Assembly: GCA_903951425.1 (NCBI GenBank)
Contig: CAJBBX010000020.1
Location: 1 to 35,720 of the forward strand
Reading direction: 5' to 3'
Source of the DNA: an uncultured Chthonomonas sp.
GTDB lineage: Bacteria; Armatimonadota; Chthonomonadetes; Chthonomonadales; CAJBBX01
Length of the DNA: 35,720 bases
Shown here: one piece after another, positions 3,113-18,726 of the stretch
Layout: every line of letters begins with the position of its first letter
Position numbering within the stretch: the first letter of the stretch is position 1
Program-made: the position numbers and the translations under genes
The notes under the pieces: model-generated
The model's database searches: none
Told to the model about the DNA's origin: nothing
What the model saw: the letters and a program-made list of their open reading frames with translations, nothing else

Positions 3113-4702
3113 CTACTCGTAGCTCACGCGCTCCAGGATGCCCAGGCTGCGGAGGCCGGCGGCGGCGTAGACGGAGATGGCCTCGAGCAGGCGTTGGTGG
3201 TCGGCGGTATAGGCGTCCAGTCTGGCGGAGAAGACCTCCAGCAGGCCCACTACGGCGCCGCGGACGCGAAGGGGCGCGAAGACTGCCGACCGGGGCAACG
3301 AGGCTTGGTCGTCCGGCAGCGTACCGTGGACGCCGCCTGCACCGTCAACGTAGTAGGTGGCCGTGCTGCCGGATCGGGCTGCCAGGTAGTCGGGGTAGAC
3401 CGTGGTCTTGCCGCTACGGAGGACGGTTGCGGCCACGCCGGAGCCGGCGGGAGCCACGGGGAGCAGTGGCCAGCCTGTCGTGTCAGCTACGCCGGTTTCG
3501 GCGGACCAGGCGTAGATCATGCGTAGCCTGGCCTCCGCCGCACCGTAGGCCGCCAGCACGAGGTTGTCGCAGGGCACGCTCTTGCAGAGCGCGTCCGTGA
3601 GGGCAGCGCACAAGCTCGCCTCGTCGGCCGCGCCGGCGACGCTGCTGGCTACGTCACACAGCAGGGTCATTTCGGCCGTGCGCGACTGTAGGGCGGCCAC
3701 GGCCTCCTGCCGGTTGGCGATCCCCTGCTGCAAGGCGTCCTTGAGCCGGCTGTTGCGGATGGCTACAGCGGCGATGGCGGCGAATGGCAGCAGGTCGTCG
3801 ACCTCCTCCTCGGCGATGGGCCTGTTGGTGAGGGCATTGTCGATGGCGATGGCGCCGAGGGCGTCGGCGCCGGCGCGCATGGGCAACACCAGGTGATGCA
3901 GCACACCGTGCATATGATGACCTTCGGCATGCCGGTGCTCGGCCTGCATATCCGCAACGTAAAGGTATGGCGCCTCGCCCTTCAGCACCGGCGCGAAGCC
4001 GGCGGCGCCCGGGTCGTCAACATGGAGCCAGATGTGGCTTTCGTCGGTGAGGCCGCCATTCCGGTCGGTGCCGTACGCTCCCTGGATCAACCCGCTGTCG
4101 GCATCGTAGAGCCAGACGCCGGCTCGGTCGAACCCATAGGCGCTGATGACGGCCTGCCGGATGCGGCGAAGGACAGACTGCTCGTCGGCGCCGGCGTTGA
4201 CGGCCGCCGTCAGCTGCATCAGCTCCCGCATCTGGTTGACGCGTCGCTGTAAGTGCGCCGTGCGTGAGCCGACCAGCTCTTCGAGGTACGCCTCGTAGCG
4301 CTCGTTCTCGGCTTCCAGCGCCTGCTTGTCGAGGATGGCGGTCCGCATCGCCGTCGCGGCAGCGGCGACCCGGCGGACCGTGTCCTTGCCCACGGGCTTG
4401 GCCAGGTAGTCGAAGGCGCCGGCGCGAATGGCCTCCCGTGCGGTCTCCAGGCTCGGCGCGCCGGTCATGACGACGACCTGTGTGTCGGGCCAGTGGTCGC
4501 GGATTCGGAAGAGCAGGTCAATGCCGCCGGCGCCGGGCATCATAACATCGGTGATCACGATGTCGGCCGCGCCCGCCTGCATCACCTCGAGGGCGGCGGA
4601 GGCGGATGCGGCGGTCACGGCGTCGTGGCCGTCAGCGGCGACGAACAGAGCCAGCGTCTTGCGGATGCCGGTCTCGTCATCAACAATGAGTATCCTCGCC
4701 AT
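3113..4702 (-). CDS. Response regulator: receiver domain followed by two GAF domains
   Basis: 529 residues. The N-terminal 120 residues are a complete receiver domain: acidic pocket D8/D9, phosphoacceptor D52 in VITDVMMP, switch T80 in VVMTGA, and K102 in YLAKPV. A short helical linker (about 125-160, EAENERYEAYLEELV) leads to GAF 1 (about 165-315) and GAF 2 (about 340-525). No DNA-binding, kinase, GGDEF or phosphatase domain follows, so the output is unclear: it may act by protein contact or by sensing a small molecule in the GAF pockets. The ATG start is preceded by AAAGG. It is divergent from the TIM-barrel histidine kinase, 126 bases away, which is the obvious partner. The GH2 gene lies 42 bases downstream. 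Confidence 0.88.
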   Translation of the reverse strand: MARILIVDDETGIRKTLALFVAADGHDAVTAASASAALEVMQAGAADIVITDVMMPGAGGIDLLFRIRDHWPDTQVVVMTGAPSLETAREAIRAGAFDYLAKPVGKDTVRRVAAAATAMRTAILDKQALEAENERYEAYLEELVGSRTAHLQRRVNQMRELMQLTAAVNAGADEQSVLRRIRQAVISAYGFDRAGVWLYDADSGLIQGAYGTDRNGGLTDESHIWLHVDDPGAAGFAPVLKGEAPYLYVADMQAEHRHAEGHHMHGVLHHLVLPMRAGADALGAIAIDNALTNRPIAEEEVDDLLPFAAIAAVAIRNSRLKDALQQGIANRQEAVAALQSRTAEMTLLCDVASSVAGAADEASLCAALTDALCKSVPCDNLVLAAYGAAEARLRMIYAWSAETGVADTTGWPLLPVAPAGSGVAATVLRSGKTTVYPDYLAARSGSTATYYVDGAGGVHGTLPDDQASLPRSAVFAPLRVRGAVVGLLEVFSARLDAYTADHQRLLEAISVYAAAGLRSLGILERVSYE

Positions 4703-4828: not shown

Positions 4829-7345
4829 TTGGACGCCGTGCAGATCGGGTACCAGACCATCGCGTTCGGCCCTACATTCGAGGACCTGCCCGGCGTGCTG
4901 GACGCGCTCGCGGCCCTGGGGTACCGGGGCATCGAGTTCGCCCAGGCGCCGCAGGCCCTGCCGCCCATCGAGGCCCTGCTGAGGATGCTGGATGACCGCG
5001 GATTGCACCTTCTCGGCCTGGCCGGAGGCAGCATCTTCGACCGCGCGGCCTACTGCCGCGACGTGCGAATACCTTATCTCTATGTCGAGGCGTGGAACCC
5101 CGCCCACGCCGAGGACGCCCTGGCCGCGGGCCACCGCCTGGCGCTCCATCCCATCACGTTCCGGCCCCTCCACCGCATGGCCGCCGCGCACACACTGCTG
5201 GCAGAGCATCCGGAGCTTCTGATCATCCCGGACAGCGCACACCTGCACATCGTGGGCGATGACCCGGCGCTGGCCCTGCGGCAGTGCGTGGGTCGGCTGG
5301 CATCGGTACACCTGAAGGACTGGACGCCGGAGTACGGCCGTTCAGCCTACCGCTACTCGCGGGGCTTCACCGAACTAGGCGAGGGCGTGGTGCCGCTGGA
5401 GCCCTTCATCGCCGAGTGGCGCAAGGGCGCTCCCGGCGTCTGGGCCGTGGTGGAGCAGGACCGGTCGCGGACCGACCCGCTGACCAGCGCCTACCGGAGC
5501 GCTTGCTGGCTGGCCGACCGCAAGCTGCTCCCGAGGCCCGCGCCTCCGGGCGGGCCTACGCACCGTGTGCGCCCGGCCATGGTGGCGCCCGAGGCGTGCC
5601 CGCCGGAGATGGTCTCGCACTTTGCGCGGTCGCTGGCGGTCGCGTCGTCCGAGGACCTGGAGCAGTCGTACACGAACATTACGGAGGCGCTCCGCGAGGT
5701 ATCGCAGGCCGACCTGGCGTCGCTCTGGGCCTTCAGCCCCAGCCGAGACCTGGGCACGCTTGTGGGCGTGAGCCCCCCTTGCAGCGCGGTGGAGCACCGG
5801 ACGCTGCAGTGCGGCCCTGCCCTGAGCGGCATCGCCGTGGACCGGCAGGCGGCCACCCTGTTTGACCTGACCACGCCGCAGCCCGGCCTGCCCTATGGCC
5901 GGCCCGATGCCGAGCTGTGCGCGCCGGAGGTGGTGAACGCGCTGGGTATGCGCTCCCTGATTTCGGTCCCCATCGCGGACCCGAGCAACGCCGACCACGT
6001 GCGCCTCATCGCCAACCTCTTCTATCGGGAGCCCGATCCGGGCGTCTCGGCGCGGGACCTGGGGGCGCTGGGAAGCCTGGTGGGCCGCGCCGCCGATGCC
6101 GCCATGGACCAGGTCTGCGCCTACGCCGCCGCCGCGGTGAACGTGGCCGCGGGCAGGGGCAAGGACGCGGGCCAGTTCCTCGACCGCGTGCGCGACCTTG
6201 TGGCGCGGCTACTCGTCTGCGACGGCGTCACCATCTTCGTGGTCGACTCCGTGGGCGACAGGCTGGAGGCCGCCAGCACCACGGGCCTGCAATGGCGCGT
6301 GGACGAGGGCGAGCGGCACTACGCCAAGGGCGAAGGCATCACCGGGGGCGTCTGGGCCAACGAGGAACCCGTGGTGGGGGCCGACGCCCACGAGGCGCCG
6401 GGCCGCGTGGCCAAGAGCGTGGAGACCGTGGGGCGGCAGTTGGGCTCGTTCCTCGTCGCGCCGCTACTCGACTCCGGCGGCGAGGTGGTGGGCGTGGTGC
6501 GGTGCCAGAACAAGCGCTCCGCCGACGGCCGATGGGCCATGTACTCCGATGACGACCTGGCCATCCTCGACGCCATCGGGCAGGCCGTGGTGCCGCACCT
6601 GGTGACCCGGCTGGCCGACGAACGGCGCATCGCAGCCCTGGGACGCCTGACCCACGAGCTGAAGGTGCCGCTGGGCTCGATCCGGGGCGCCGTGGACCTG
6701 ATCCAGCACACCAAGGGCGTCCGGGAGATGCTCCCCTACGACTACCTGGGTGATATCCTCTCCTGGTGCGACATCATGCGGCGGCTGGTGGGCAACGCGG
6801 ACGTGCTGCGGTCGGCCCGGGCTTCGCTGCCGCTGGATTGCCGGCCCACGTTCCTGAAGTCGGAGGTAATCGCGGCGGCGGTGCGGCAGGCGGGCCTGCT
6901 GCTGCGCGGCAAGCGCTTCAGCGAGAACCGCATCCAGTACGACGATTTCGAGACGGTGCCCCGCCTCTGGATCGACAGGAGCCAGTTCCAGCAGGTGATG
7001 TTCAACCTGCTGTCGAACTCCATCAAGTATGCGTTCAGCGATCCCGACGCGTTCAACGTCGAGATCGCCGGCGATCGGCGCGGGGGCGATTATGTGATAA
7101 CCTTCCGCGACCGGGGCACGGGCATTCCATCCGGCGCCGACGAGCGCCTCTTCCAGGAGGGCGCCCGGGGCCGCAACGCGCTGGAGCGCAATGTGGCGGG
7201 GCAGGGCCTGGGGCTCTTCGTGGTGCGGCAGATCGTGGAGGCTCACGGCGGCTCGGTCCGCGTGACCCACACGGCCCAGCCCACCGAGATAACCATCACG
7301 CTGCCGGGTGAGCTGGCGCATCGGCCGCCCGGGCAGAAGGGATAG
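4829..7345 (+). CDS. Hybrid sensor histidine kinase: IolE-like TIM barrel, two GAF domains, HisKA and HATPase
   Basis: 838 residues from a TTG start behind a weak GGGGG. Residues 1-230 form a xylose-isomerase-like TIM barrel most like inosose dehydratase IolE: GYRGIEFAQ, PDSAHLHI, VHLKDW, FTELGEGVVPLEPF, WAVVEQD. Candidate metal or active-site residues D135, H138, H161, D164 and E209 are all present, so the barrel may still bind a sugar or a metal. GAF 1 spans about 260-435 and GAF 2 about 445-600. The dimerisation/phosphotransfer helix has H609 in LTHELKVPLGSI. The ATPase domain (about 695-832) has the N box around N726 (FNLLSNSIKY), DRGTGIP and GQGLGLFVV. No transmembrane segment is visible, so it is cytoplasmic. 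It is followed 8 bases later by a lone receiver. Fusion of a TIM barrel to a kinase is unusual; I infer ligand sensing through the barrel. Confidence 0.88.
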   Translation: MDAVQIGYQTIAFGPTFEDLPGVLDALAALGYRGIEFAQAPQALPPIEALLRMLDDRGLHLLGLAGGSIFDRAAYCRDVRIPYLYVEAWNPAHAEDALAAGHRLALHPITFRPLHRMAAAHTLLAEHPELLIIPDSAHLHIVGDDPALALRQCVGRLASVHLKDWTPEYGRSAYRYSRGFTELGEGVVPLEPFIAEWRKGAPGVWAVVEQDRSRTDPLTSAYRSACWLADRKLLPRPAPPGGPTHRVRPAMVAPEACPPEMVSHFARSLAVASSEDLEQSYTNITEALREVSQADLASLWAFSPSRDLGTLVGVSPPCSAVEHRTLQCGPALSGIAVDRQAATLFDLTTPQPGLPYGRPDAELCAPEVVNALGMRSLISVPIADPSNADHVRLIANLFYREPDPGVSARDLGALGSLVGRAADAAMDQVCAYAAAAVNVAAGRGKDAGQFLDRVRDLVARLLVCDGVTIFVVDSVGDRLEAASTTGLQWRVDEGERHYAKGEGITGGVWANEEPVVGADAHEAPGRVAKSVETVGRQLGSFLVAPLLDSGGEVVGVVRCQNKRSADGRWAMYSDDDLAILDAIGQAVVPHLVTRLADERRIAALGRLTHELKVPLGSIRGAVDLIQHTKGVREMLPYDYLGDILSWCDIMRRLVGNADVLRSARASLPLDCRPTFLKSEVIAAAVRQAGLLLRGKRFSENRIQYDDFETVPRLWIDRSQFQQVMFNLLSNSIKYAFSDPDAFNVEIAGDRRGGDYVITFRDRGTGIPSGADERLFQEGARGRNALERNVAGQGLGLFVVRQIVEAHGGSVRVTHTAQPTEITITLPGELAHRPPGQKG

Positions 7346-7353
7346 GCAGGATC

Positions 7354-7767
7354 GTGGCAAAGAGGCTTCTGTTTGTGGATGACGACGTTACGCCGAACTG
7401 GTACCACGTGTCGGCGCTGGAGCAGAAGGGCTTCGAGGTCCTCCAGTGCGTCATCCCCGACAGGGCGGTGGAGGAGGCCGGCGCCGGCTGCCCGGACCTC
7501 ATCGTGCTGGACATCATGATGCCGCCGGGCAAGCTCTTCACGCCCAAATCCAGCGACAACGGGCTCATCACCGGCGTGCTCCTCTACTCGGTCCTCCGCG
7601 CACACTGCCCGGATACGCCGGTGGCCGTGCTGACCAACGTGCAGAACCCGCAGACGCTGGCGCGGTTCACTCCGGGACCGCGGTTGCGGGTGTTCCACAA
7701 GGTAGATTGGCTCCCGACCGCGTTCGCCGAGGAGATGGCGCGCGTGGCCGAGGCGGGCGGCTGGTAA
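7354..7767 (+). CDS. Single-domain response regulator (receiver)
   Basis: 137 residues, receiver domain only. D10/D11, phosphoacceptor D53 in LIVLDIMMPPG, T94 in VAVLTN and K116 are present. The usual K-P pair is K-V here (VFHKVDW). After D53 there is a longer loop (PPGKLFTPKSSDNGLITG) typical of receivers that act as phosphate shuttles or in complexes rather than with a DNA-binding output. The GTG start follows the kinase stop by 8 bases, so the two are co-transcribed and this is probably the first phosphate acceptor. It could relay to the receiver-GAF-GAF protein; that step is inference. Confidence 0.85.
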   Translation: MAKRLLFVDDDVTPNWYHVSALEQKGFEVLQCVIPDRAVEEAGAGCPDLIVLDIMMPPGKLFTPKSSDNGLITGVLLYSVLRAHCPDTPVAVLTNVQNPQTLARFTPGPRLRVFHKVDWLPTAFAEEMARVAEAGGW

Positions 7768-7903: not shown

Positions 7904-9331
7904 TTGTCTGACCTTATTGCGGGTATGCCGAGGCTGATACAGGCCGGCATGGGAGTACAGGTTTCGTGCGCCCGCCTGGCTAACGCAACGGCGCGCCTCG
8001 GCGCGCTGGGCGTGGTCTCCGGTGTGGGGCTGCGCCATATCGTCGTGGAGCAGGTGCGAGCGGGCGACGAGATCGCCATCTCCCTGGCCCAGACGTTCCC
8101 GATCAAACGCTACGTCGAGGATCTGCTGAGCTACGCGCGCGGCGGGTCCCGATTCCATCTTGAGCCCCCCATGGACCTGCCGGACCCGGTCCGTGGCGCG
8201 CTCGCACGGCGTCTCAGCGTCATCGGCGCCTATGTCGAGGTGCTGCGCGCCAAGTCCGGCCATCGCGGCCGGGTGGGCGTCAACGTCATGTGGAAGTGCG
8301 CCCTCACGGTGCTTCCCACGATCTACGGCGCCATGCTCGGCGGCGTCGACGCCCTGCTCTGCGGCGCCGGCGTGCCCATGGAGCTGCCGGACATCGTCAC
8401 GAACCTCCGCGCCGGCAACGCCGTGGAGTACGAGGCGCTGACGGGCACGGGCACGCACGTCCTGCTGGAGGCCCCCGGCGACGAGGGCGCGGCCCTGCTG
8501 GCGCAGCATCCCGCCCCGCACATGATCCCGATCCTCTCCAACTTCGCGTTCCCCAAGCGCATCCTGGACATCTGGAACCGCGACATGGAGGGCGCGCGGC
8601 CTTTCGCCTTCGTGCTGGAGAACCACCGCGCCGGCGGCCATAACGCCCCGCCGCGCAACCGCGTCTCCTTCGGCGATCCCGACGAGATCGACGCCTACTT
8701 CGACAAGGTGCTGGCCATGGGCGTGCCCGTCTACGTTGCCGGGGCGCTGGACGAGGGAGGCTCGCGCAACGACTACCTGCGCTGGCTGGCCCGCGGGGCC
8801 TACGGCGTGCAGATCGGTTCGCGGTTCGCGCTCTGCAGGGAATCCGGCATGAGGGATGACCTGAAGCAGCAGGTCGTCGATCGCAACCACACCAAGGAGA
8901 CCACCGTCCTCACGGACAATGTGCTCTCGCCCACGGGGTACCCCTTCAAGGTGGTGCCGCTGGAGGGAACACTGGCCGATCCGACGGTCTACGAGGCCCG
9001 CAAGCGCATCTGCAACCGGGCCTACCTGGTCACCTCCACTTGGGACACGCGGCCCGACGGCACGCGGCGGGAGCGATACATCTGCCCGGCCATGCCGGAG
9101 AAGCAGTACCGGACGCTGGGCGGCGACGTGGCCGACCTGACCGGCCGCGTTTGCCTCTGCAACGCCCTGCTCTCCACGGCGGGCCTCTACACCGACGTGG
9201 AGCCGCCCATCATCACCCTGGGCGAGAGCGGCGTCCACGCAGAGAAGATGCTCTCAGCCCGTGAGATCGTTGAGGACATCCTGACGCCCGAGGTCGTGGC
9301 CGAGCAGGAGAGGGCGTTGGCTTTAGCTTGA
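7904..9331 (+). CDS. Nitronate monooxygenase-like (2-nitropropane dioxygenase family) FMN protein
   Basis: 475 residues from a TTG start at 7904; AGGAGG at 7892-7897 with 6-base spacing decides it. The fold is a (beta/alpha)8 FMN-binding barrel: opening LIQAGMGVQVS, GVNVMWKC, CGAGVPMELP, the family motif ENHRAGGHNAP (E239 to H246), then VYVAGALDEGG and YGVQIGSRFALCRESG as the phosphate-binding loop. It is longer than typical bacterial nitronate monooxygenases (about 310-360 residues). The extra C-terminal part (about 365-475) is Cys-containing (RYICPAMP, RVCLCNALLSTAGL), which recalls the PfaD/FabK-like enoyl-reductase branch of the superfamily. Family members oxidise alkyl nitronates or reduce enoyl thioesters using FMN; which applies is unknown. 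It stands alone after a 136-base gap. Confidence 0.82.
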   Translation: MSDLIAGMPRLIQAGMGVQVSCARLANATARLGALGVVSGVGLRHIVVEQVRAGDEIAISLAQTFPIKRYVEDLLSYARGGSRFHLEPPMDLPDPVRGALARRLSVIGAYVEVLRAKSGHRGRVGVNVMWKCALTVLPTIYGAMLGGVDALLCGAGVPMELPDIVTNLRAGNAVEYEALTGTGTHVLLEAPGDEGAALLAQHPAPHMIPILSNFAFPKRILDIWNRDMEGARPFAFVLENHRAGGHNAPPRNRVSFGDPDEIDAYFDKVLAMGVPVYVAGALDEGGSRNDYLRWLARGAYGVQIGSRFALCRESGMRDDLKQQVVDRNHTKETTVLTDNVLSPTGYPFKVVPLEGTLADPTVYEARKRICNRAYLVTSTWDTRPDGTRRERYICPAMPEKQYRTLGGDVADLTGRVCLCNALLSTAGLYTDVEPPIITLGESGVHAEKMLSAREIVEDILTPEVVAEQERALALA

Positions 9332-11283: not shown

Positions 11284-12234
11284 CTAGAGGCGGCACACCA
11301 TATCGTAGTTGTTCAGTTCGCCTGCCATGAACTCGCCGATCTTCCGGAAGCCCAGCTTCTCGTAGAAGCGTCGGGCGCGGACGTTGCGCTCCTGGACGCC
11401 GCCCCAGAGGTTCACGGTGCGTATGCCTCGTGAGCGCGCCATGCGGAAGAGGACCGCCGCCATGGCCGTGCCGACCCCCGTCTCCTGCAGGCCGTCCAGC
11501 ACCGACGGCGCGAACGCGGCGCACTCGCCTTCGGGTAGCTCGATCCCCTCGGCCCGGTACTTCTCCGCGTCGATGTGCCAGACCCCGATCTGGAGCAGCA
11601 TGTAGGAGATGAGCCGGCCGTCAGGCAGTTCGCCGACCACGCGCAGCAGGTCGGCTGGCGCCAGCGTGGCGCAAATGGCGTCCGCCTCCTCCTGCGTGAA
11701 GGGGTGCGGGCCGTAGAGCGACCGGGTCCGCTCGGAGAGGCCTGCGAAGTAGGCGCCAAGGCGCGGGCCATCGTCGGGCCGCAGCAGGCGCACCGTCATC
11801 TCCTCGCCGGAGCGGAGCCGCGTGCGGGCCACGGCCGGCGCCGGGGAGCCGGGAGGCAGGAGGGCCAGGTGCGACCCGCAGCGGCAGTCGCTGGAGCCGA
11901 AGCCGCGCACGGGCTCGGAGGCGCCGGGGATGGACAGCAGCTCGGCGTGGAGGGCGCACTCCGTCGGTCCGCCGCCGGGCAGGGCCTCCAGGTCCACCAC
12001 TTCGGCGTGGGGCAACAGGTAGTCGATGTGCCACTTCAGCACGCCCGTGGGCCGCAGGTAGCGCCGCACCCGGCCGCGGATGCCTCGCAGGGCGCTGCCG
12101 CTGTAGGCGTAGAGGCCGGCGGGTAGCTCGCGCTCGCCCAGGGCGCCGATGGGCGCGCGGGCGGCCTCGGACAGCCGCAGCCAGAGGCGGTAGGCTCCGG
12201 GTTCGACGGTGATCTCTTCGGGGTCGATGGGCAT
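11284..12234 (-). CDS. DUF123 (GIY-YIG-like) domain fused to a GNAT acetyltransferase
   Basis: 316 residues from ATG at 12234, which follows GAGGAG. An upstream in-frame extension to 12423 exists but reads as low-complexity and overlaps the divergent gene. Residues 1-135 match DUF123/COG1833: GAYRLWLRL, AGLYAYSGSALRGIRGRVRRYL, WHIDYLL, ECALHAELL, GFGSSDCRCGSHL. Residues about 155-316 are a GNAT domain (TVRLLRPDDGPRL, ETGVGTAMAAVLFRMARSRG, NVRARRFYEKLGFRKIGEF). DUF123 is usually a stand-alone nuclease-like protein or is joined to DNA repair enzymes; its role is unsettled. The acetyltransferase substrate is unknown. It is divergent from the methyltransferase at 12353, with 118 bases between starts. 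Confidence 0.83.
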   Translation of the reverse strand: MPIDPEEITVEPGAYRLWLRLSEAARAPIGALGERELPAGLYAYSGSALRGIRGRVRRYLRPTGVLKWHIDYLLPHAEVVDLEALPGGGPTECALHAELLSIPGASEPVRGFGSSDCRCGSHLALLPPGSPAPAVARTRLRSGEEMTVRLLRPDDGPRLGAYFAGLSERTRSLYGPHPFTQEEADAICATLAPADLLRVVGELPDGRLISYMLLQIGVWHIDAEKYRAEGIELPEGECAAFAPSVLDGLQETGVGTAMAAVLFRMARSRGIRTVNLWGGVQERNVRARRFYEKLGFRKIGEFMAGELNNYDMVCRL

Positions 12235-12352
12235 GGCGGGCGGCTCCTCGGGTCGTTTGCCGGAGGGGCGATCCGCCGCGTCCGGCAGGCTACAGGGTAG
12301 CATGAAGCGAGCCGACCGGTGCGCCGGCGGGGACTCGAGGAGGTGCAGGACC

Positions 12353-13009
12353 ATGGCGGCGAAGAGCCCACTAGAGCGAGCGACGGCGTTGCTGCATCTC
12401 TGCCGTAAGTTCCGTCCGGCCACGCTGGCCTACAAGGCCAAGCTGAACCGCATGGGCGTGGACATCCACTTCGAGAGCCCGCGCGCCATCGGCCTGCCCC
12501 GAGGCGCGGGCTTCATGTACAGCGACTCGTGCGGACCGGACCTGGCGTTCGTTCTGAAGCAGCTGCCCATCGGCCCGGAGGACGGCATCATCGACCTGGG
12601 CTGCGGCAAGGCCGGGGCGCTCATCACCATGGCCGAGTTCCCCTTCGGCCGCATCGACGGGCTGGACCTCTCCGAGAAGCTGATCCGCATCGGCCGGCGC
12701 AACCTGGAGATCTGCAAGCTCAAGAACGCCACGCTCTACGTCGCCGACGCGACCACCTTCGACGACCTGGACCCTTACACCTACCTCTACTTCTACAACC
12801 CCTTCCCCGAGCCGGTCATGGAGAAGGTGATGGAGAACATGCGGGAGTCGCTGCGGCGCAAGCCCCGGAACATGACCATCGTCTACTTCCACCCCTTCGC
12901 CAAAGGTCCGGTGGAGGTGGCCCTGCCGTGGGACGAGAAGAAGGTCTACGACCACTCCACGCATCCCATCCACGTCTACTTCAAGGCGGCAACCGGCGCC
13001 AGGACCTGA
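12353..13009 (+). CDS. Class I SAM-dependent methyltransferase
   Basis: 218 residues. ATG at 12353 is chosen because GAGGAGG (12337-12343) sits 9 bases upstream; an upstream ATG at 12302 lacks such a site. The Rossmann-type methyltransferase core shows motif I as IIDLGCGKAG (residues 79-88), the acidic end of strand 2 at D105 (GLDLS), and a YFYNPFPEP motif near 145 in the place of motif IV. The NPF form resembles N-methylating enzymes, but the rest of the protein is not distinctive enough to name a substrate. Its 3' end overlaps the convergent branching-enzyme gene by 34 bases. Confidence 0.85.
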   Translation: MAAKSPLERATALLHLCRKFRPATLAYKAKLNRMGVDIHFESPRAIGLPRGAGFMYSDSCGPDLAFVLKQLPIGPEDGIIDLGCGKAGALITMAEFPFGRIDGLDLSEKLIRIGRRNLEICKLKNATLYVADATTFDDLDPYTYLYFYNPFPEPVMEKVMENMRESLRRKPRNMTIVYFHPFAKGPVEVALPWDEKKVYDHSTHPIHVYFKAATGART

Positions 13010-15024: not shown

Positions 15025-15329
15025 GAGGCGCCCTCCCCGGCAAAGCGCGGCCCGCCGCCTGTGGGGAGTGTACCTGCCGCGCCGTAAGGCCGGGGCCTGG
15101 TTGCCCTCTGCCCTTGCCGTCATCCTGAGGCCGCCGTTTGGCCGAAGGACCCCCGTAAGCTGCCCGCCGCACTTCCGCATTGTACGGCGCCATGGGCCGG
15201 CCCGGGCCACCAACGGCGGCCTCCTCTCCCCTTCCCCCCTTCACCGCCTCACATCCTCACATCCTCACCCCACACGGTCGGGTACTCTCGTGGGGTGTTG
15301 CCCGACGCCGGTTGGGCGCCCTCTGGGGA
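15025..15329. other. 305-base divergent intergenic region with repeat-like sequences
   Basis: This gap between the branching enzyme and the lipid A operon holds no credible gene. At 15119-15153 is GTCATCCTGAGG...GGCCGAAGGACCCCC, which resembles the dispersed GTCATCCTGAG-CGAAGGA elements common in many bacterial genomes and contains a small GGCC...GGCC hairpin. At about 15226-15270 is a pyrimidine-rich tract with short direct repeats (CACATCCTCACATCCTCAC), related in reverse complement to the arms at 9330-9407. The promoters for both divergent units must lie here. Confidence 0.55.
15067..15072 (-). promoter_or_regulatory. Possible -10 element (TACACT) for the branching enzyme gene
   Basis: TACACT on the minus strand, 42 bases before the ATG at 15024. 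No convincing -35 partner is visible, so support is weak. Confidence 0.25.
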
Positions 15330-16619
15330 GTGTTCGCCATCATCGCCTTGTACAACATCGGGCTCCTGCTGCTCTCGCCTGCCATCGCGCTGGGGCTGGC
15401 CTTGCGGCTGGCGCGCGGCAAGTCGCGCGCCGGGTGGGGCGAGCGCTGGGGGCGGTTGCCCGCCGTCGCGCCTGCGTCGGGCCAGCGCGTCTGGGTCCAT
15501 GGCGCGTCGGTGGGCGAGGTCTCGGCCGTCACTCCCATCCTTCGCGCCCTCAAGGCCGCCCGGTCCGACGTGGACGTGGTCATCACGTGCATCACGCCCG
15601 GTGGACATGAGACCGCCTCCAAGCTCGTGCCCGGCCTAGCCTCAGCGGCGCTCTACGCCCCGTTTGACGTGCCCTTCGTCGTGCGCCGCTTCCTGCGGGC
15701 GTTGCGGCCGGACCTGCTCGTGGTCGTCGAGACCGAGCTATGGCCGAACCTCCTGCACCAGGCCCACTGCGCCCGCGTGCCCGCCCTGCTGGTCAGCGGA
15801 CGCATCTCGGACCGGAGCTTCCCGCGGTACCTGCGAGCCCGGCCCCTCACGCAGGCCGCGCTGGGCCTCTTCCGCCGCGTTCTGGCCCAGACCGAGACCG
15901 ACGCCGAGCGGCTTCGTGCGCTGGGAGCGCCGGTGGGCATCGTCTCCGTGGTCGGCAACCCGAAGTTCGACCAGCGGACGCCCTGCCTGACCGACGCCGA
16001 GGCCGCCGCACTCCGGCTGGAGCTGGGCCTGGCCGCCGACCGCCCCACGCTGGTGGTTGGCAGCACCCGCTCCACCGAGGAGGAGGAGGCAGTGCTGGGC
16101 GCCTTCATGACCGCCCGCGCGGCGCTGCTCGGCCTGCAACTGCTCCATGCGCCTCGCCACCCGGACCGCGCCGACGACCTGGCCGCGCTCATGCGGCGCG
16201 TGGGGCTGGAGCCTGCCCGCCGGTCGGCCCGCGAGGCCGCCGTCGACGGCGTGGTGATCCTCGACACCTTCGGCGAGCTGGCCCGGGCCTACGCCGCCGG
16301 CGACGTGGCCTTCATCGGCAACAGCCTCTCCGAGCCGGGCGGCGGCCAAAACCTGCTGCAGCCGCTGGCGCAGGGCAAGGCCGTACTGCACGGGCCGCGC
16401 ATGCAGAACTTCCGCGACATCACCGCGCTGGCGGCGCAGGCCGGGGTGGCGTTCGAGGTCCGATCCCAGCGCGAGCTGGCCGACGCCCTGCTGGAGCTAC
16501 TGGCCGACCCCGACCGCCGGGCCCGGATCGCCCGGACCGCGCTGGCGCTCATCGAGGCCAACCAGGGCGCTTCGGAGACCTACGCCCGGGCCATCGCCGA
16601 GGCGCTGGAGGGCCGGTGA
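15330..16619 (+). CDS. waaA: 3-deoxy-D-manno-octulosonic acid transferase (Kdo transferase)
   Basis: 429 residues if translation starts at GTG 15330; TTG 15312 and earlier in-frame codons are possible and no strong ribosome site decides it. I chose 15330 because the protein then begins with the expected N-terminal membrane anchor (FAIIALYNIGLLLLSPAIALGLAL). The GT-B enzyme shows WVHGASVGEV with the conserved glutamate, FDVPFVVRRFLRALRPDLLVVVETELWPNLL, SGRISDRSF, VVGNPKFDQ, HAPRHPDR, FIGNSLSEPGGGQNLLQPLAQGK and an NFRD motif. It transfers Kdo from CMP-Kdo to lipid IVA at the inner face of the cytoplasmic membrane. It is the first gene of the lipid A operon; its stop overlaps the next start. 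Confidence 0.93.
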   Translation: MFAIIALYNIGLLLLSPAIALGLALRLARGKSRAGWGERWGRLPAVAPASGQRVWVHGASVGEVSAVTPILRALKAARSDVDVVITCITPGGHETASKLVPGLASAALYAPFDVPFVVRRFLRALRPDLLVVVETELWPNLLHQAHCARVPALLVSGRISDRSFPRYLRARPLTQAALGLFRRVLAQTETDAERLRALGAPVGIVSVVGNPKFDQRTPCLTDAEAAALRLELGLAADRPTLVVGSTRSTEEEEAVLGAFMTARAALLGLQLLHAPRHPDRADDLAALMRRVGLEPARRSAREAAVDGVVILDTFGELARAYAAGDVAFIGNSLSEPGGGQNLLQPLAQGKAVLHGPRMQNFRDITALAAQAGVAFEVRSQRELADALLELLADPDRRARIARTALALIEANQGASETYARAIAEALEGR

Positions 16620-17746
16620 GCGTGTCCGATCCGGCCGGGCGTCCGTGGGCGCTGAGGGTGCTGGACGGCTCCGCCACGGGCCCCGGCGCAGGTGCGCTGC
16701 GGCTGCTGCTCTCGGGTCTGGCGCTGATCTACTCCGGCGGGCTGAAGCTCTACCTGGCGCCCTACCGGCTGGGCCTCCGCAAGCAGGCGCGGCTGCGATG
16801 CCCCGTAGTGAGCGTGGGCAACCTCACCACCGGCGGCACGGGCAAGACGCCCTTCACGCTCTGGCTCTGCCGCCGTCTGCAGGCCCAGGGGCTGCGTCCC
16901 TGTATCTTGAGCCGTGGCTACCGGGGAGCGGGCGAAGGCGGCGCGGTGATCGTCTCCACTCCCGACGAAGTGCTCCTCGGCGCCCGCGAGGCCGGAGACG
17001 AGGCCTTCCTGCTGGCCACCTCGCTGCCGGGCGTCCCCGTGCTGGCGGGGCGCGACCGCCGCGTCACCGGCCGGCTGGCCGTGGAGCGCTTCTCGCCGGA
17101 CCTCATCGTGCTGGACGACGGCATGCAGTTCTACCAGCTCCACCGCGATGTGGAGGTCGTGCTTCTCAACGCCGTGCGCCCCTTCGACAACGGCCGCCTG
17201 CTGCCCCGAGGCCTCCTGCGCGAGCCGCCCAGCCACCTGAGCCGGGCCGGCTTCGTGGTCCTGACGCACGTCGATGAGGTCGCGGGCGACCAGGTGGCGG
17301 CGCTGAAGCGACGCGTGGCCGCCATCGTCGGGCCGGGCCGCGTGGCCGAGGCCGCCTATAGCGCGGCGGGAGTGCGCCCGTCGGCCGGCGGCGAGGCCTC
17401 CCCCGCGATGTCCCTGGCCGGACGCAAGGTGGCCGCCGTATCGGCCCTGGGCCACCCCGAGGGCTTCGAAGGACTACTGGAGCGCGTGGGCGCCGACGTG
17501 GCGCTGCGGCGGCGCTTCCCGGACCACCATGCCGTCACGCCCGACGAGATGGAGCAGGCGGCCCGCGACGCCCAGGAGGCCGGCGCGGAGCTGTTGGCCA
17601 TCACCGAGAAGGATGCCGTGAAGCTCCCCGTGCGCGAGTATGCCCTGCCGGTGGTAGTCTTGTCGGCAGAGTTGGACATCATCGGCCATGAGGCGCTGGA
17701 CGAGGCGATCCGGCAAGCCCTGGCCCGGGCAGGGAGCAAGTCATGA
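16616..17746 (+). CDS. lpxK: Tetraacyldisaccharide 4'-kinase
   Basis: 376 residues from GTG at 16616, overlapping the waaA stop by 4 bases (GTGA). A GTG at 16622 is an equally possible start; GGAGG at 16607-16611 could serve either. An N-terminal hydrophobic stretch (about 28-42) precedes the P-loop VGNLTTGGTGKT (67-78), ILSRGYRG, GDEAFLLA, VLDDGMQFYQLHRDVEVVLL, RLLPRGLLREP and, near the C-terminus, LLAITEKDAVKLP. The enzyme phosphorylates the 4' position of the lipid A precursor in the inner membrane. It ends in a 4-base ATGA overlap with the acyltransferase gene. Confidence 0.94.
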   Translation: MSVSDPAGRPWALRVLDGSATGPGAGALRLLLSGLALIYSGGLKLYLAPYRLGLRKQARLRCPVVSVGNLTTGGTGKTPFTLWLCRRLQAQGLRPCILSRGYRGAGEGGAVIVSTPDEVLLGAREAGDEAFLLATSLPGVPVLAGRDRRVTGRLAVERFSPDLIVLDDGMQFYQLHRDVEVVLLNAVRPFDNGRLLPRGLLREPPSHLSRAGFVVLTHVDEVAGDQVAALKRRVAAIVGPGRVAEAAYSAAGVRPSAGGEASPAMSLAGRKVAAVSALGHPEGFEGLLERVGADVALRRRFPDHHAVTPDEMEQAARDAQEAGAELLAITEKDAVKLPVREYALPVVVLSAELDIIGHEALDEAIRQALARAGSKS

Positions 17747-18726
17747 GCCAGGCGCCGTCGCTGGGGAACACGCGGCCACAAACCAACACGAAGCTATCCA
17801 AACGGCTGGCCCGCGCCGTGGGCCTGGCGGTGCTGAAGGGTCTGGTGGCCCTGCTGCCGCGCCTGCCGCTGCCCGTGGCGCTGGGGCTCGGCCGGGGCCT
17901 GGGCAACCTCATGCGCATGGTCTCGAAGAAGCGGCGCAAGGTCGCGCAGGACAACCTAGCCTGGGCGCTGGGCCCGACGCACTCCGAAGTGGAGCGCCGG
18001 CGCATCGCCTGGGAGAGCTTCCGCCAGTTCGGTATGCTGATGGTCGAGCAGATCTGGTACGCCTTCCGCACGCCGGAACAGATCGATGAGGTGATCGAGT
18101 TTCGCGAAGAGGATTGGAGCGACTTCGCCGCGCTTCACGCCCGAGGCAAGGGCGTCATCTTCGTCACCGCGCACCTGGGCAACTTCGAGATGCAGGCGCG
18201 CATCCCCGCCGCCCGCGGGGTGGAGGTGCTGTTGCTGGTCCGCCCCTCGCGCGATCAGGGCACCACCGAGCTGATCACCCGCCTCCGCGAGCGCACCGGA
18301 CTGAAGGTTGTGGAGACAGGCAGAGGGCTACGCACCATTCTGGAGGGGCTCCGACGCGGCGCCTGCGTGGCCATGGTGAGCGACCAGAACGCCACCGATG
18401 TCTTCGTGCCCTTCTTCGGACGCCAAACCGGCTTCGTCGACGGCGCCGCCCGGCTGGCGCTGAAGACCGGCTCGGCCATCATCCTCTGCTACTGCGTGCG
18501 GGTGGGGCCCGGCCGCTTCCGCATGCTCTACAGCGGCGGCTTCGTGCCCGAGTCCACGGGCGACACCGCCGCCGATATCGACAAGATCATGCGCCGCGTG
18601 GCCGATGACTCCGAGGCCGCCATCCGGGCCCACCCCGAGCAGTGGCTCTGGTTCCACAATCGCTGGAAGTCGTCGCCCCCGCCGCCCGAGCGCCCGTCCG
18701 GCCCGCAAAGGAGCAACCAAGCATGA
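17743..18726 (+). CDS. Lipid A late acyltransferase (LpxL/HtrB family)
   Basis: 327 residues; ATG overlaps the lpxK stop (ATGA). An N-terminal hydrophobic segment (about 27-55) is followed by the family core: KVAQDNLAWAL, the catalytic H-x4-E motif at H144-E149 (TAHLGNFE), VRPSRDQGTTELI, SDQNATDVFVPFFGR, and PEQWLWFHNRWK near the C-terminus. It adds a secondary acyl chain to Kdo-lipid A using acyl-ACP. Whether it is the LpxL or LpxM equivalent cannot be told, and only one acyltransferase is present here. It is cotranscribed with kdsB, again with a 4-base overlap. Confidence 0.9.
   Translation: MSQAPSLGNTRPQTNTKLSKRLARAVGLAVLKGLVALLPRLPLPVALGLGRGLGNLMRMVSKKRRKVAQDNLAWALGPTHSEVERRRIAWESFRQFGMLMVEQIWYAFRTPEQIDEVIEFREEDWSDFAALHARGKGVIFVTAHLGNFEMQARIPAARGVEVLLLVRPSRDQGTTELITRLRERTGLKVVETGRGLRTILEGLRRGACVAMVSDQNATDVFVPFFGRQTGFVDGAARLALKTGSAIILCYCVRVGPGRFRMLYSGGFVPESTGDTAADIDKIMRRVADDSEAAIRAHPEQWLWFHNRWKSSPPPPERPSGPQRSNQA

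Follow-up and report, generated by a model that had tools for sequence, protein, structure and literature searches.

Domain Organization of the Barrel-Kinase Gene

The stretch of DNA analysed here (the window, 35,720 nucleotides) belongs to a draft genome of 6.08 Mb from an uncultured Chthonomonas sp. (Armatimonadota; GCA_903951425.1, contig CAJBBX010000020.1). Its forward strand carries an uninterrupted 838-residue frame with a TTG start and no internal stop codons (4829–7345), which joins a TIM barrel to a histidine kinase, followed by the gene for a stand-alone receiver that begins 8 bp 3′ of the kinase gene:

4829–7345 (+): sensor kinase gene, barrel-GAF-GAF-HisKA-HATPase, 838 residues (open reading frame, Pfam, orthologues)
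4829–5536 (+): IolE-like xylose-isomerase-type TIM barrel, residues 1–236 (AP_endonuc_2, 55.3 bits with this piece scored alone)
within residues 1–236: barrel site residues H107, D135, H138, H161, K163, D164 and E209
within the barrel: family-specific loop Y169-G170-R171-S172, R175-Y176, G179-F180
5651–6091 (+): GAF1, about residues 275–421, borderline (21.8 bits against a cut-off of 22.4)
6170–6586 (+): GAF2, residues 448–586 (Pfam, 50.9 bits scored apart)
6641–6796 (+): HisKA dimerisation/phospho-acceptor domain, residues 605–656, with H609 (sub-threshold HisKA match, intact H-box)
6974–7306 (+): HATPase_c catalytic domain, residues 716–826, with N, G1 and G2 boxes (Pfam, motifs)
7354–7767 (+): stand-alone receiver, a response regulator without an output domain, 137 residues, with D9, D10, D53, T94 and K116

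When the full-length protein is searched against Pfam, AP_endonuc_2 (PF01261) is matched at residues 85–227 (5e-13, 49.8 bits against a cut-off of 31.1), GAF in two stretches (1.1e-16), HisKA below threshold (0.001) and HATPase_c at 1.9e-19 (73.5 bits as a separate piece). The phospho-acceptor H609 sits within LTHEL, and the kinase boxes follow from residues 726 (N-box), 761 (DRGTGI) and 791 (GQGLGL), such that both the ATPase domain with its N, G1 and G2 boxes and the phospho-acceptor histidine that characterize a sensor histidine kinase are present. The earlier note, made from the sequence alone, had placed barrel and kinase in one chain with no frame break, as the reading frame bears out. 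Of the GAF-GAF-HisKA-HATPase order that it gave, GAF2, HATPase_c and the H-box stand, whereas GAF1 is borderline and HisKA sub-threshold. The barrel residues that it singled out (D135, H138, H161, D164 and E209) all lie where it put them, in the motifs P134-D135-S136-A137-H138, H161-L162-K163-D164-W165 and E209-Q210-D211.

The Fusion Recurs in Distant Armatimonadota

The fused kinase is present in 5 of 291 Armatimonadota genomes. It is whole in two congeners of the window organism (intact at L028 and L029, 95–96% identity), and a single frame of 902 residues encodes it on a 1.69 Mb contig of G042, a genome of another family (27–33% identity). Only contig ends interrupt the copy in the fifth genome (G025, 31–38% identity): the front, to approximately window residue 404, ends one contig and the remainder, from approximately residue 432, starts another, from which we infer that the two pieces are halves of one gene. 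The distant homologues match the window protein along its full length (27–38% identity) and score 175–232 bits, compared with only about 80 bits for the best non-fused kinases of the phylum; both the G042 and G025 kinases keep the equivalent of H609. The AP_endonuc_2 match exceeds its cut-off in all three lineages (49.8–56.3 bits). Pairwise dN/dS values among the three congeners (0.06–0.11 for the barrel, 0.01–0.05 for the kinase, with an overall domain range of 0.01–0.15) indicate that every domain is under purifying selection.

The earlier note had considered that relatives might always carry barrel and kinase as separate genes; instead, the fusion recurs whole in four assemblies. The genomes are draft metagenome-assembled genomes and the G025 copy is divided between two contig ends, which might suggest that assembly or gene calling had fused unrelated genes. 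However, the four independent assemblies represent two families, one of them with the fusion on the 1.69 Mb contig, and the orthologues are homologous along their entire length; these whole orthologues rule out an assembly artefact, leaving an accidental fusion with a vanishingly small probability. Since the fusion recurs with the same partner gene in distant Armatimonadota, it is a genuine sensor design, and apparently one not described before; no description of a barrel-kinase architecture was found in the open-access literature.

The Kinase Gene Is Linked to a Stand-Alone Receiver Gene

A receiver gene of the same type lies directly 3′ of the kinase gene in all five genomes. What was found is thus a two-component cassette of two genes, and the unit described in the earlier note, a single kinase gene, has to be widened to take in the downstream receiver gene. 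The G042 and G025 cassette receivers (175 residues, L031 10807–11334, and 345 residues, L032 1342–2379, respectively) share with the window receiver the residues equivalent to D9, D10, D53, T94 and K116 and an extended loop following the phospho-acceptor. The G025 receiver has, in addition, a C-terminal extension of approximately 200 residues that matched no Pfam family, which may represent the otherwise missing output domain.

Other stand-alone receivers with a long loop (MMPPG...), such as that beside a kinase in G275, likewise have the DD/D/T/K set. A profile of the three cassette receivers nevertheless gave 193–225 bits in exactly the five kinase-bearing genomes and no more than 53 bits in the rest of the 291 genomes of the phylum, setting the cassette receivers apart as a group of their own. 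Linkage and co-occurrence mark the kinase and receiver as a cognate pair, in which phosphotransfer is predicted. At the G275 locus (L096), a different kinase is followed by the receiver, whose long loop is similar (MMPLGDGETWEGIDPIDAG), which suggests a wider class of pairs of a kinase and an output-less receiver.

Comparison of the Barrel with IolE and Ketose 3-Epimerases

A search of solved structures with a profile built from the three divergent barrels ranked IolE (3cny) first (E 5.8e-10), followed by Art22, the beta-eliminase 8bvk, 2-hydroxy-3-keto-glucal hydratase and UlaE. Among NCBIfam models, TIGR04379 (IolE; cut-off 290 bits) is the best for all three barrels; the window protein scores 24.2 bits and the remaining two score 25.0 and 40.8. 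The "IolE-like" assignment of the earlier note is thus upheld by both comparisons, although scores so far below the cut-off imply that the barrel is IolE-like and not IolE itself. The D, H, H and E motifs of IolE (DTGH/VHFKD/VVE) align with those of the fused barrel, which is of the same type; in contrast to IolE, the fused barrel is shorter between strands 4 and 5 and is attached to a kinase, and no iol or inositol catabolism genes were recognised among the annotated neighbours of the cassette loci.

The metal site was compared in an alignment of 15 barrels, comprising the three fused barrels and twelve stand-alone relatives from the genome (where AP_endonuc_2 has 35 matches in total) and from plasmids. 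Ketose 3-epimerases hold Mn through Glu152, Asp185, His211 and Glu246, and use His188 for substrate binding (PMC8167858). The spacings of D135 to H138 (3 residues) and to H161 (26 residues) equal those of Asp185 to His188 and His211, and the Asp, His and Glu metal ligands, together with the substrate histidine at Asp+3, are common to the fused barrel and this group (tagatose/allulose 3-epimerase, UlaE). D135, H161 and E209 are identical in all 15 aligned barrels. The first, strand-5 glutamate of the Glu-Asp-His-Glu site, which in ketose 3-epimerases is a metal ligand and catalytic, is instead replaced by histidine in 13 of the 15 (His107 in the window protein), most of the stand-alone relatives among them, and likewise in IolE. 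With regard to the earlier note's view that the metal site is kept, three of four ligands, as well as H138, are thus in place, but the fourth is His107, such that conservation of the site is only three quarters shown.

Within the three fused lineages, D135, H138, H161, K163, D164 and E209 are invariant. The second histidine of the H-x-H motif that begins with H107 is retained in G042 and G025 but is Ile109 in the window genus. Compared with the stand-alone barrels, the fused barrels have a shorter segment between strands 4 and 5 and share the loop Y169-G-R-S..R-Y..G-F180, which is mostly absent from the stand-alone ones; its GRS portion has local similarity to the 2-hydroxy-3-keto-glucal hydratase 8ro4. 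An AlphaFold2 model of the barrel, made from three near-identical sequences, was of low confidence (mean pLDDT 44, pTM 0.42), and the mixed Rossmann and barrel matches that Foldseek returned with it (TM mostly <0.4) were disregarded.

Genomic Context and Horizontal Acquisition in G042

The cassette genes of G042 have 33–35% GC, compared with 69% for the ABC-transporter ATPase and permease genes that flank them, in an operon of 67–69% GC. The two transporter genes directly adjoin in a congener of G042 (G066, L080) and in other members of the family. Homology to the congener ends at L031:8034, in the last ATPase codons, and resumes inside the permease gene, delimiting an insert of approximately 3.3 kb (L031:8035–11357, 33% GC) that holds just the kinase and receiver genes. 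A low-GC cassette within a high-GC operon, with the site empty in relatives, shows that the G042 cassette was acquired horizontally as a unit, from a low-GC source. No transposase was found in the insert, the edges of which are hairpin-like (left TACAT-TTGAG-ATGTA, right GTGTAG-AGCG-CTACAC). Elsewhere, both in G025 and in the window genus, the cassette matches its surroundings in GC content.

The flanking genes differ among the three lineages, with no metabolic gene constantly linked to the cassette across their flanks, and thus fix no target operon. An FMN oxidoreductase gene (7904–9331) near the cassette in the window was rejected as a functional partner because it is retained by family members that have no cassette.

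The low-GC donor implied by the G042 insert was not found in searches whose coverage beyond Armatimonadota was small (approximately 550 genomes reached via one Burkholderiaceae genome, plus plasmids and phages). No relatives of the fusion were detected among 150 close relatives of the Burkholderiaceae genome or among 398 genomes from its phylum, in both cases with a search that had no positive control. The genome-contig scan used exact peptide patterns of the window protein and so detects close relatives only, with other phyla consequently poorly sampled. The plasmid records contained none with a barrel plus kinase, the phage matches were to the generic kinase part only, and the viral-contig scans gave no related barrels.

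Proposed Mechanism and Alternative Readings

Sensor kinase inputs are mostly PAS, Cache, GAF or periplasmic-binding-type modules. The cassette resembles soluble GAF-domain histidine kinases in its GAF-HisKA-HATPase core, its complete set of boxes and its separate receiver, but differs from them in having an enzyme-type TIM barrel as its N-terminal module. We propose that this soluble kinase and its receiver form a cytosolic two-component system, in which the barrel probably senses a metal-bound sugar or cyclitol by binding it and signals to the receiver. A divalent metal would be held by D135, H161 and E209, perhaps also by H107, and the ligand, a small sugar, keto-sugar, cyclitol or derivative, would be bound with the assistance of H138, K163 and the arginine-rich loop 169–180. 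Ligand binding would alter the packing of the barrel on GAF1 and GAF2, which in turn may control autophosphorylation of H609, with the phosphate then passing from the kinase to D53 of the receiver. As the receiver has no DNA-binding domain, its output would have to run through another protein that it binds, or through a relay.

It is possible, though we consider it rather unlikely, that the barrel is a still-active isomerase, epimerase or dehydratase, the turnover state or product of which sets kinase activity. The invariance of the six site residues in the three fused lineages, the enzyme IolE as best match and the local resemblance of the GRS loop to 8ro4 favour such an activity, and the conserved catalytic residues fit an active enzyme equally well as a sensor. 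Conversely, one of the four metal ligands is histidine, the barrel is shortened relative to its stand-alone relatives, H109 is lost in the window genus and no pathway gene is linked at all three loci. The histidine in place of the strand-5 glutamate, the shortened strand 4–5 segment, Ile109 and the lack of a constantly linked metabolic gene were counted for sensing, and the sensor is the favoured reading. The first of these does not show loss of catalysis, because IolE and most of the "HNH/HPH" relatives, which are presumably active enzymes, have the same replacement. We give a similarly low but appreciable chance to a related arrangement, in which a competent sugar/cyclitol enzyme is covalently wired to a kinase, such that its occupancy or turnover is the signal, and the resulting two-gene sensor cassette spreads among bacteria that are only distantly related.

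A defence role is conceivable, in which the cassette would be a mobile signalling module of a defence or other selfish type and its barrel would detect a metabolite arising from phages or from damage, but we judge it improbable. It would be in keeping with the patchy distribution (5/291 genomes), with the G042 cassette and its empty site in relatives, and with weak PADLOC matches of the kinase to PDC-M43B (1e-11) and of the receiver to SduA and PDC-M60B. These matches, however, fall on the generic HATPase and receiver domains, and no known set of defence genes was matched specifically in PADLOC; effector, nuclease and toxin are all absent from the cassette, no defence genes were seen near it in the window, and horizontal transfer alone is no proof of such a role.

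Should the barrel prove to be the sensor that we favour, a whole xylose-isomerase-like enzyme barrel would be serving as an input domain, demonstrating a route from metabolic enzyme to receptor. The sensed molecule is probably intracellular and sugar-like; the residues of the barrel point to inososes, keto-sugars and 3-keto-glycosides as the first ligands, and to the first mutants, to be tried.

Other Genes in the Window

The divergent neighbour of the kinase gene (3113–4702, −) encodes a receiver-GAF-GAF protein without an output domain, which is kept beside the cassette in the genus and is faster evolving than its own neighbours (83% versus 92–99%). Further downstream, one open reading frame (11284–12423, −) combines DUF123 with a GNAT acetyltransferase domain. 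Genes for a Kdo transferase, LpxK and a lipid A acyltransferase lie in a row at 15180–18726 (+), from which lipopolysaccharide synthesis is predicted in this Armatimonadota genome.
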